DNA from: Sphingobacteriales bacterium
Lineage (GTDB): Bacteria; Bacteroidota; Bacteroidia; Sphingobacteriales; Sphingobacteriaceae
Direction of reading: 5' to 3'
Length of the DNA stretch: 64,000 bases
Assembly (NCBI GenBank): GCA_028288165.1
Contig: JAQBOG010000033.1
Span: 246,000-309,999, forward strand
Shown here: positions 25,103 through 46,263 of the stretch, piece by piece
Layout of the letters: the number at the start of each line of letters is the position of its first letter
Position numbering within the stretch: the stretch's first letter is position 1
The notes under the pieces: model-generated
What the model saw: only the letters and a program-made list of their open reading frames with translations
Told to the model about the DNA's origin: nothing
Databases searched by the model: none
Position numbers and translations under genes: made by a program

Positions 25103-25193
25103 GGGCGTTCAGGCGGGCTTTACGTGTCAATCTTTTTGCCCTGGAGAAGGGCAAAAAGGATTTTCACTGCAATCCTAACGCAAAACCTAGCAA
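25103..25193 (+). repeat. Interspersed intergenic repeat, copy 1
   Basis: About 91 bases sharing a conserved core with three other loci in the window: a GGGCGTTC/GGCGGGCTT head, a TTTTTGCCC...GGGCAAAAA hairpin with 9-bp arms, GGATTTTCACT, and a tail TAACGCAAAACCTAGCAA. It lies between the 3' ends of the sigma factor and fasciclin genes. Confidence 0.9.
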
Positions 25194-36550: not shown

Positions 36551-36646
36551 GGGCGTTCGGGCGGGCTTTCCGTTACAATCTTTTTGCCCTGAAGAAAGAA
36601 GGGCAAAAAGGATTTTCACTTCAATCCCTAACGCAAAACCTAGCAA
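36551..36646 (+). repeat. Interspersed intergenic repeat, copy 2
   Basis: About 96 bases with the family core, including GGGCGTTCGGGCGGGC, TTTTTGCCCTG and AGGGCAAAAAGGATTTTCA. The hairpin loop is longer (TGAAGAAAGA) than in copy 1. It lies 40 bases after the second secreted protein and before the convergent lipoprotein. Confidence 0.9.
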
Positions 36647-42795: not shown

Positions 42796-42889
42796 TGCCG
42801 TTCGAGCGGGCGTTCCGTTCCAATCTTTTCGCCCTAGAGAAGGGCAAGAAGGATTTTCACTACAATCCCTAACGCAAAAAACCTAGCAA
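42796..42889 (+). repeat. Interspersed intergenic repeat, copy 3
   Basis: About 94 bases, the most diverged copy: GCCGTTCGAGCGGGCGTTCC head, TCGCCCTAGAGAAGGGC hairpin core, AAGGATTTTCACTAC and the ending ACCTAGCAA. It lies between a hypothetical gene and the tRNA-like RNA terminator. Confidence 0.88.
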
Positions 42890-43010: not shown

Positions 43011-43041
43011 AAATAAGCTCCTGATGGGCAGAAGCTTATTT
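43011..43041 (-). terminator. Terminator of the tRNA-like RNA
   Basis: AAATAAGCTCCTG pairs with its partner arm (CAGAAGCTTATTT) with one mismatch around a short loop. On the minus strand the right arm runs into TTATTTTA. It is 37 bases beyond the tRNA-like 3' end. Confidence 0.75.
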
Positions 43042-43077
43042 AAACTAACCAATTATAAACCTAAACTAACCGAGGTG

Positions 43078-43198
43078 CTGTAGGGGAAGGAGTCGAACCT
43101 TCACGAAGTAGTTATTTCTCTTTCCTTGCGGTCAGATATTTCCCAAACCTTCGCCACCGAGACAAGGAGGTGTGTCTGCCAAATTTCACCACCCTACA
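43078..43198 (-). ncRNA. Unusual tRNA-like RNA with a very long variable arm
   Basis: The minus strand folds as a tRNA of 121 nt. The acceptor stem TGTAGGG/CCCTACA has 7 bp and discriminator G (one further C-G pair is possible). D-arm GTG...CAC has A14, GG and A21 in place; the T-arm is GAAGG-TTCGACT-CCTTC with a perfect T-loop. The anticodon arm is odd: CCTCC-TTGTCTC-GGTGG has a central U-U mismatch; U33 is present, the nominal anticodon is GUC and position 37 is U. Between the anticodon and T-arms lie about 51 nt with a CGAAG/CTTCG base stem and a GCAA tetraloop. Ordinary class II tRNAs have 10-24 nt there. It could be a divergent tRNA, a decayed tRNA, or a tRNA-like regulatory RNA. Confidence 0.72.
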
Positions 43199-43232
43199 GT
43201 ATAAAAGCCAGCGTTTTACCGATTGCTTAATA

Positions 43233-43264
43233 CAAATGTAAGACCTTCAACTATTCCTTGCAAA
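43233..43264 (-). promoter_or_regulatory. Promoter of the tRNA-like RNA
   Basis: On the minus strand TTTG, a 20-base spacer and TACATTTG form a textbook Bacteroidota promoter. The predicted start leaves a 5' leader of about 30 nt before the acceptor stem. Confidence 0.75.
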
Positions 43265-43334: not shown

Positions 43335-43814
43335 ATGTTTATGGAAAATCAATCAAATAATTTCGAACTTGACAATTTGGATATACAAATTTTATCCATT
43401 TTAATGGAAGATGCAACAATACCATATACAGAAATCGCTAAAAAGCTGATCGTTTCAGGAGGCACAATACATGTCAGAATGAAGAAAATGCAGGATTTGG
43501 GCATAATTAAAGGTGCAAATCTCATCATCGATCCGCAAAAAATTGGCTATGACGTTTGTGCATTTCTTGGTATTTTCTTAGAGAAAGGATCGCAATATAA
43601 AGATGCTGTTGATAGCTTAAAGAAGGTTAAAGAAATTGTGGAATTGCATTATTGTACAGGCGCCTACAGCATGTTTGCTAAAATCATCTGCCGAGACACT
43701 AACCACTTAAGGCATGTATTAAATGAAGATATACAAGCAGTTAAAGGAATTCAACGTACTGAGACCTTCATCTCATTAGAAGAAAGCATCCGTAGACAAA
43801 TAAAATTAGAATAA
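43335..43814 (+). CDS. Lrp/AsnC-family transcriptional regulator
   Basis: 159 residues from the chosen ATG (another ATG follows two codons later; a TTG start upstream is less likely). N-terminal winged helix-turn-helix: LDIQILSILMEDATIPYTEI and AKKLIVSGGTIHVRMKKMQD. The C-terminal AsnC ligand-binding domain contains KEIVELHYCTGAYSMFAKII. Family members respond to amino acids or related effectors. It is divergent from the tRNA-like RNA across a 136-base gap. Confidence 0.9.
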   Translation: MFMENQSNNFELDNLDIQILSILMEDATIPYTEIAKKLIVSGGTIHVRMKKMQDLGIIKGANLIIDPQKIGYDVCAFLGIFLEKGSQYKDAVDSLKKVKEIVELHYCTGAYSMFAKIICRDTNHLRHVLNEDIQAVKGIQRTETFISLEESIRRQIKLE

Positions 43815-46169: not shown

Positions 46170-46263
46170 TTGCTAGGTTTTGCGTTAGGGATTGAAGTGA
46201 AAATCCTTTTTGCCCTCTTTCTTCGGGCAAAAAGATTGTAACGAAAAGCCCGCCCGAACGCCC
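46170..46263 (-). repeat. Interspersed intergenic repeat, copy 4 (inverted)
   Basis: About 94 bases on the minus strand, closest to copy 2: GGGCGTTCGGGCGGGC, TTTTTGCCC, a loop (GAAGAAA), GGGCAAAAAGGATTTTCACT and CTAACGCAAAACCTAGCAA. It lies between the pdhB promoter and the addB-like stop. Confidence 0.9.

Follow-up and report, generated by a model that had tools for sequence, protein, structure and literature searches.

On the minus strand of the window, by which we mean the whole 64,000-nucleotide stretch of Sphingobacteriaceae DNA analysed here, lies the gene of a tRNA-like RNA, divergent from a gene for an AsnC-type regulator (Table 1). The assembly it belongs to comprises 3.69 Mb in 42 contigs and is 68.6% complete. 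The original prediction had described the landmarks of a tRNA combined with a flawed anticodon stem and a very long insert, and rereading the sequence bears this out. There is a 7-bp acceptor stem, U8, a 3-bp D-stem with A14, GG and A21, and a perfect T-arm. The anticodon arm reads CCUCC-UUGUCUC-GGUGG, with the central U·U mismatch, the anticodon GUC and U37. The insert measures 51 nt and has the predicted CGAAG/CUUCG base stem and GCAA loop, and the expected hairpin terminator stands downstream. With its 7/5 acceptor/T stems, U8, G18G19 and TTC, the cloverleaf is that of a canonical tRNA.

Table 1. Features of the RNA gene and its divergent neighbour in the window.
Feature	Position	Strand	Remarks
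tRNA-like RNA, 121 nt	43078..43198	minus	nt 1 = 43198, G73 = 43078, C74 encoded at 43077; covariance-model family, 128 bits with model R1
5′ acceptor strand UGUAGGG	43192..43198	minus	partner strand 43085-43079; U1-A72 and G2-C71 in 97/97 distinct rows; pairs 3-7 covary
Anticodon arm	43154..43170	minus	anticodon GUC at 43163-43161, U37, C38; central U·U mismatch
Variable domain, 51 nt	43103..43153	minus	base stem CGAAG/CUUCG, conserved internal loop GGGAAA/UAAC, GCAA-capped inner hairpin, then U48
T arm	43086..43102	minus	100% of cells paired, covarying
Conserved 3′ trailer module GGTTTATAATTGGTTAGTTTAA	43040..43061	minus	in most Sphingobacteriaceae copies among the matches listed
Intrinsic terminator hairpin, loop GCCCATC	43011..43042	minus	read from the sequence; similar hairpins in relatives
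-7 promoter element TACATTTG	43233..43240	minus	TAnnTTTG type
Operator-like site TTGAAATATTTGCAA	43258..43272	minus	exact in the window; overlaps the -33 TTTG at 43261-43264
AsnC-type transcriptional regulator	43341..43814	plus	divergent from the RNA; Pfam AsnC_trans_reg and HTH_AsnC

A search with tRNA models had been proposed together with the prediction. ARAGORN called nothing in the window, and the Rfam tRNA model (RF00005) gave the RNA 31.7 bits against a gathering score of 29, a pass that is obtained only if the short stretch is searched alone. No Rfam family other than tRNA rose above its gathering score over the window RNA, and no Rfam matches were found over the family copies in six loci. 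Free folding of the single window sequence did not recover the cloverleaf: the minimum free energy is -32.2 (z -0.17) and the best fold that contains the cloverleaf lies at -28.8 kcal/mol. An intron or ribozyme in the insert, prompted by the motifs GGAUAAAC...GCUAAC and GGGUUGACCAC, was considered and rejected, as no Rfam match supports it.

The RNA is one member of a family. BLAST found matches in 44 of 100 genomes, including the window's own, commonly in tandem and with up to five copies at 150-nt spacing (locus L068). A covariance model built from 36 sequences (R1) separates family members from tRNA-Leu; applied to 395 Bacteroidia genomes at E ≤ 1e-12 plus stricter filters, it returned members in 64 of them, across 19 GTDB families. 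With a broader model (R2) on a sample of the phylum, members score at least 97.6 bits and tRNA-Leu-sized matches at most 60.3. Four matches fall between: two long members (genomes G952 and G545), a 76-nt form (G379) and an ordinary tRNA-Leu (G1012). Copies also occur in three genomes (f114) of a second Bacteroidota class, at least two of which have them in tandem, with a divergent AsnC gene adjoining. A plasmid search with the window RNA gave no match, and no earlier description of the family was found among open-licence PMC papers. The 67 rows of one family alignment exclude four ordinary tRNAs, and three regex-selected copies with ends that could not be set were left out.

The variable region of a canonical tRNA measures up to about 24 nt. 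This is exceeded in the 113 copies selected by covariance model (CM), whose inserts span 38-106 nt. Two kinds of insert occur: in the short kind there is a small hairpin, in the long kind a GGGTTGACCAC segment. Some genomes (L063, L066, L075) have both in tandem. Family f49 departs from both the long arm and the anticodon, neither of which is therefore absolute: its anticodons include CUC and AUC, and the arm is missing from one copy. That copy, the 76-nt relative of genome G379 (L410), has the anticodon AUC, keeps U1-A72, G73 and C38, and is a natural arm-less version of the family.

Phages carry the RNA as well. The family pattern occurs in 29 IMG/VR stretches, 14 of which contain ordinary tRNA genes according to ARAGORN, up to 21 of them plus a possible tmRNA. 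The 28 complete viral members score 91-113 bits with R2, and a 636-kb uncultured phage record carries one copy. The spacing between the RNA and adjacent tRNAs in phage arrays can be as short as 4 nt, and three phage pieces (L319, L330, L341) also encode an ordinary tRNA-Asp. No AsnC gene was found beside viral copies in the viral stretches examined. A phage might gain from the RNA either by the making of asparagine or by translation. By eye, the long arm of viral copies L313-L340 often includes a phage-specific palindrome of 8-12 nt (GTGCAC, TGCATGCA and GCCGGCCGGC types), which could serve dimerisation or match a dimeric partner. Five phage arrays, L317 (5130-8251, minus), L319, L337, L338 and L340, additionally hold a second series of odd tRNA-like RNAs of about 78-148 nt, seven of them in L317, which share the acceptor and T arm (AGTCAGG...CCTGACTA) and have very different interiors.

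One option left by the original prediction, that of a decaying tRNA, is excluded, because all cloverleaf helices covary and the family is widely conserved. In a MAFFT alignment of 36 relatives, eight pairs have changes on both sides, amounting to 32 double-change cells (9.4 in shuffles). Covariation is seen here in the acceptor, T and arm-base stems, and the D and anticodon stems are invariant. In a larger alignment of 101 sequences (97 distinct), 261 cells show double changes, where shuffles give 71.6 and slid controls no more than 46, and every cloverleaf helix contributes. This alignment was fitted to a covariance model and therefore leans towards structure; the MAFFT alignment is independent of it. 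Substitutions in the stems are thus not random. The compensatory changes that had been proposed as a check are present in relatives, in the CGAAG/CUUCG base stem (two adjacent pairs have 36 and 46 double-change cells in the 101-sequence alignment) and, outside the window's family, in the anticodon arm. Here the U·U mismatch is invariant across the 36 close relatives, and other families have fully paired stems such as CCCUC/GGGGG, CCCGC/GCGGG and CCGCC/GGCGG. The anticodon arm of the close relatives, CACCUCCU, presumably resembles the 16S 3′ tail. A mimic of the anti-Shine-Dalgarno sequence was nevertheless rejected, because other families keep the anticodon loop while the stem covaries.

Which amino acid might such an RNA carry? 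Excerpts of PMC9976931 list G73, G34, U35, C36 and C38 as bacterial aspartate determinants, with the 2-71 pair as a minor one. The window copy has the AspRS set G34, U35, C36, C38 and G73 along with G2-C71. Among the 113 distinct CM-selected copies U35, C36 and G73 are each found in all 113, C38 in 110 and G34 in 108, and G2-C71 occupies 97 of the 97 distinct rows of the 101-sequence alignment. The family has no G1-C72, a pair that reportedly assists in placing the 3′ end in the AspRS of E. coli (PMC9976931, in excerpt), and G10 is present in the window copy and unconserved in the family. The first pair is U1-A72 in 97/97 distinct rows, 113/113 CM-selected copies and 23/23 distinct viral copies. 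In bacteria U1-A72 directs the amidotransferase GatCAB to Asp-tRNA-Asn and Glu-tRNA-Gln, and G1-C72, with U20a, is a GatCAB antideterminant (PMC9976931 and PMC4206432, both in excerpt). The few canonical tRNAs compared have G1-C72 in 4/4 tRNA-Asp and 3/3 tRNA-Asn.

Anticodons were counted in the 113 CM-selected copies, because the regex pattern used for the wider collection fixes the anticodon and D-arm. GUC is found in 108 of them; the five other cases are CUC in two f49 genomes, UUC in L128, an odd loop in L170 and a parsing error on a degenerate copy (L015:923). A decoding tRNA has U33 and a purine at position 37. The family does not follow this rule: position 33 is U in 82 copies, C in 19 and G in 12, with A33 in f114 of the second class, and position 37 is U in 98, G in 8, C in 6 and A in one, that is, a pyrimidine in 104/113 and a purine in 9/113. 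The window copy has U33 but U37. Since canonical tRNA-Asp has the anticodon loop CUGUCAC (4/4 in the fetched loci), the common loop of the family, CUGUCUC, differs from it only at position 37. All 113 copies, like all 111 canonical tRNAs of the fetched loci, have C74 in the genomic sequence, which fits a tRNA-type 3′ maturation.

The body, on the other hand, is that of a leucine-like class II tRNA. The D-arm is almost identical to that of the tRNA-Leu (GAG) of the same genome, and the two share the 3-bp D-stem, A15 and mostly U48; unlike tRNA-Leu, the family has G73, GUC, U1-A72 and a much longer arm. G73 argues against a leucine identity. In tRNA-Ser it acts as an antideterminant against LeuRS, and serine identity in bacteria depends on C72 and C11-G24 (PMC9976931, in excerpt). 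The family has U11-A24 in 86/97 rows and C11-G24 in 11/97.

As U1-A72 is invariant and is a GatCAB signal, gatB should track the RNA, a linkage that was predicted before testing. We chose 80 genomes for spread from larger sets before results were known, 40 with the RNA (RNA+) and 40 without (RNA-). A lenient search with R2 was repeated on 31 of the RNA- genomes, where, among the matches listed, none exceeded 59.5 bits and all were of tRNA size; for the other nine, absence rests on the earlier R1-stage search. gatB is present in 40/40 RNA+ genomes, a set that covers three of the window's genus and not the window's own genome, vs 11/40 RNA- genomes. Within Sphingobacteriaceae the figures are 10/10 vs 0/16, the latter including two species of the window's own genus. 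AsnRS was over the cut-off in 80/80 genomes and GlnRS in 56/80. Where both are present, translation should not need GatCAB, and in these genomes gatB accompanies the RNA in 26/26 cases vs 1/30 without it (Fisher p 4e-15, phylogeny ignored).

All 29 genomes without RNA and without gatB have GlnRS. Ten of the 11 RNA- genomes with gatB have no GlnRS and so would need GatCAB for tRNA-Gln. Against the link, 14 of the 40 RNA+ genomes are also without GlnRS and would need GatCAB anyway. The exception, G071, has an amidase-family (GatA-like) gene (L409, 407-1804) and, after it, the gene of a 1106-residue protein in which GatB and AspRS-type parts are fused (L409, 1804-5124). The fusion comprises the Pfam domains GatB_N and GatB_Yqey, an OB fold, the class II synthetase domain tRNA-synt_2 and GAD, the last being that of bacterial AspRS. 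This is apparently a one-chain transamidosome, and it may be taken as a sign that GatCAB in Bacteroidota is tied to aspartate. The co-occurrence with gatB is a linkage and does not by itself establish the RNA as a GatCAB substrate. We also considered that the RNA replaces asparagine synthetase A, and rejected this: asnA does not alternate with the RNA, being found in 2/40 RNA+ vs 7/40 RNA- genomes (six over the cut-off; p 0.15), with six of the seven in one genus.

The gene neighbourhood provides another link to asparagine. The divergent Lrp/AsnC partner of the original prediction is in place, and its sequence puts it closest to AsnC proper among characterised regulators: the best NCBIfam match is NF008384 AsnC (E 2.1e-53, below the curated cut-off) and the best PDB match is AsnC 2cg4 (E 3.9e-37). 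Homologues of the RNA beside AsnC were sought in relatives and are present. Outside Sphingobacteriaceae, 36 of 67 copies have an AsnC match in the fetched locus (35 divergent, one convergent) and 31 have none there. At least 153 regex-selected copies were collected from 119 genome stretches; among the matches listed, AsnC accompanies 103, divergent in 103/103 and within 600 nt in 99, and the other 50 of 153 have none in the fetched stretch (38, plus 12 with little upstream sequence). The dedicated RNA gene beside Lrp/AsnC thus holds across at least 15 families, with AsnC divergent from the RNA, though not for every member. Apart from AsnC, no neighbouring gene recurs in more than 6/59 loci.

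The promoter proposed ahead of the RNA also finds support. TAnnTTTG, which we take to be a Bacteroidota-type promoter element, occurs within 150 nt upstream in 163/261 copies vs 22-38 in ten shuffles. The operator-like site is likely to be bound by AsnC, judging from its distribution. With up to two mismatches it is found in 80/133 copies with a divergent AsnC gene within 300 nt, in 7/32 with AsnC at 300 nt or more, in 28/74 without AsnC in the locus (seven of these 74 had little upstream sequence) and in 0/22 viral copies, compared with about 1% or less in shuffles; these counts were made in the very sequences that yielded the consensus. The occurrence of the site in copies without a local AsnC gene suggests that control is also exerted in trans. 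The E. coli regulator AsnC activates asnA, an effect that asparagine abolishes, and its gene is divergent from asnA (PMC4482635 and PMC8707732, both in excerpt). The arrangement here is alike in that an AsnC-type regulator is divergent from a function proposed to make asparagine, and unlike in that an RNA gene stands in place of the asnA protein gene. No AsnC match was seen near asnA in nine fetched asnA loci; an operator-like site with two mismatches lies upstream of asnA in 2/6 loci of one genus, where the DNA is AT-rich.

From these sequence comparisons we consider the RNA to be probably a dedicated and non-decoding carrier under AsnC control, onto which AspRS loads aspartate for conversion to asparagine by GatCAB. 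It would be transcribed and matured in tRNA fashion, by RNase P, 3′ trimming and CCA addition. AspRS would then charge it with aspartate, and GatCAB, guided by U1-A72, would amidate the bound aspartate to asparagine, which would be released for metabolism, unless the Asn-RNA is itself used as a donor. The RNA's large arm, together with the changes at positions 33 and 37, may prevent it from entering the ribosome once charged, or may anchor it within a complex of AspRS and GatCAB. When asparagine is scarce AsnC would raise expression of the RNA gene, as E. coli AsnC does for asnA. The rare YUC anticodon variants, if charged with glutamate, would again yield a GatCAB substrate and lead to glutamine, and phages would carry the RNA as an auxiliary metabolic RNA. 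The complete scheme, a non-translating tRNA as RNA cofactor of biosynthesis on which AspRS and GatCAB make asparagine that is released, with feedback through AsnC, phage-borne auxiliary metabolic RNAs and YUC variants for glutamine from glutamate, is put forward tentatively, at somewhat less than an even chance. The original prediction had included a non-decoding tRNA-like RNA or amino-acid donor among its options. This part stands in that a carrier fits best; the aspartate identity, the GatCAB signal and the gatB link come from the present tests.

Among the closest known systems is the tRNA-dependent asparagine synthesis of Deinococcus, Thermus and Bdellovibrio. There, as proposed here, RNA-bound aspartate is amidated by GatCAB through U1-A72, and this too occurs in cells with both AsnRS and GlnRS (PMC4206432, in excerpt). 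Its carrier, however, is the decoding tRNA-Asn, charged by a non-discriminating AspRS, whereas the family is a separate RNA that has the aspartate anticodon and a giant arm, shows weakened decoding features and is encoded beside AsnC. The staphylococcal cell-wall tRNA-Gly is a tRNA dedicated to non-ribosomal chemistry. It resembles the proposed carrier in this respect and differs in its normal size, amino acid and pathway. What GatCAB does in bacteria equipped with both AsnRS and GlnRS is a puzzle posed in PMC4206432 (in excerpt), and a carrier of this kind would be a likely answer. It would also suggest that metabolic use alone can be enough for a tRNA to be retained, beside an asparagine-type regulator and carried by phages, and it adds a large structured RNA family that ARAGORN missed in the window.

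How well do other readings account for these observations? The AsnC neighbourhood and the operator-like site would equally suit a regulatory RNA of the asparagine system, controlled by AsnC, which binds or titrates AspRS and/or GatCAB or reports aminoacylation and makes no asparagine. Proteins or other RNAs could bind to its large conserved arm, and the gatB linkage fits a GatCAB ligand as well as a substrate. A mere decoy, however, need not retain G73, C74 and the whole acceptor/T architecture, and phages place the RNA in tRNA arrays as if it matured like a tRNA, so we regard this as unlikely.

A little less likely again is that GatCAB acts on ordinary tRNA-Asn, through a non-discriminating AspRS as in Bdellovibrio, with the RNA as an accessory lost alongside it. 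Excerpts of PMC4206432 report genera, Bacteroidetes among them, that have GlnRS, AsnRS and GatCAB, no asparagine synthetase and, in all cases, a U1-A72 tRNA-Asn, and for this reason ordinary tRNA-Asn could be the substrate in some genomes. Yet the one chromosomal tRNA-Asn gene taken from an RNA+ record (L289) has G1-C72, and 26/26 vs 1/30 is tighter than expected of an optional accessory.

Aspartate identity combined with impaired decoding would also be found in a donor of aspartate, rather than asparagine, to a non-ribosomal transferase, comparable to the staphylococcal tRNA-Gly. As this leaves the invariant U1-A72 and the co-occurrence with gatB without a role, and no candidate gene besides AsnC exceeds 6/59 loci, it appears improbable. 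We are just as doubtful about a specialised decoding tRNA that reads GAY codons as Asp or Asn in starvation or phage infection: the GUC anticodon, U33 in 82/113 copies and the presence in phage tRNA arrays agree with it, but a pyrimidine at 37 in 104/113, a residue other than U33 in 31/113, A33 in f114, an insert of 38-106 nt above class II size and the ordinary tRNA-Asp already carried by phage pieces L319, L330 and L341 argue against it.

A serine-charged allo-tRNA, suggested by the class II body with its long arm and G73, is highly improbable, as GUC and C38 are conserved though SerRS does not read the anticodon, C72 is replaced by A72 in 97/97 rows, C11-G24 is confined to 11/97 with U11-A24 in 86/97, and the acceptor/T format is 7/5 instead of 8/4 or 9/3. 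Allo-tRNAs are likewise class II tRNA-like genes whose anticodon is at odds with the body, GUC being among those reported (PMC7609411, in excerpt); the family differs from them in its 7/5 stems, much larger arm, AsnC linkage, lack of serine-type C72 and scarcity of C11-G24.

Beyond the RNA itself, further small elements were noted. The trailer module (GGTTTATAATTGGTTAG plus terminator hairpin) also stands free in the same genome, in stretches L002 and L003 around 1501-1530, with a promoter-like sequence and a C-rich hairpin loop. Allowing up to two mismatches, it occurs at 10 places in the genome vs 3 for a reversed control, and the free-standing module may be a separate small RNA. A hairpin region with AATTGGTTAGTT at 1620-1661 of L002 lies on the opposite strand to the nearby trailer-type small RNA and is possibly its antisense partner. 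Finally, Rfam places four Flavo-1 RNAs in the window, at 36555-36639, 46177-46259, 25107-25184 and 42800-42880, one of them beyond the terminator of the tRNA-like RNA.
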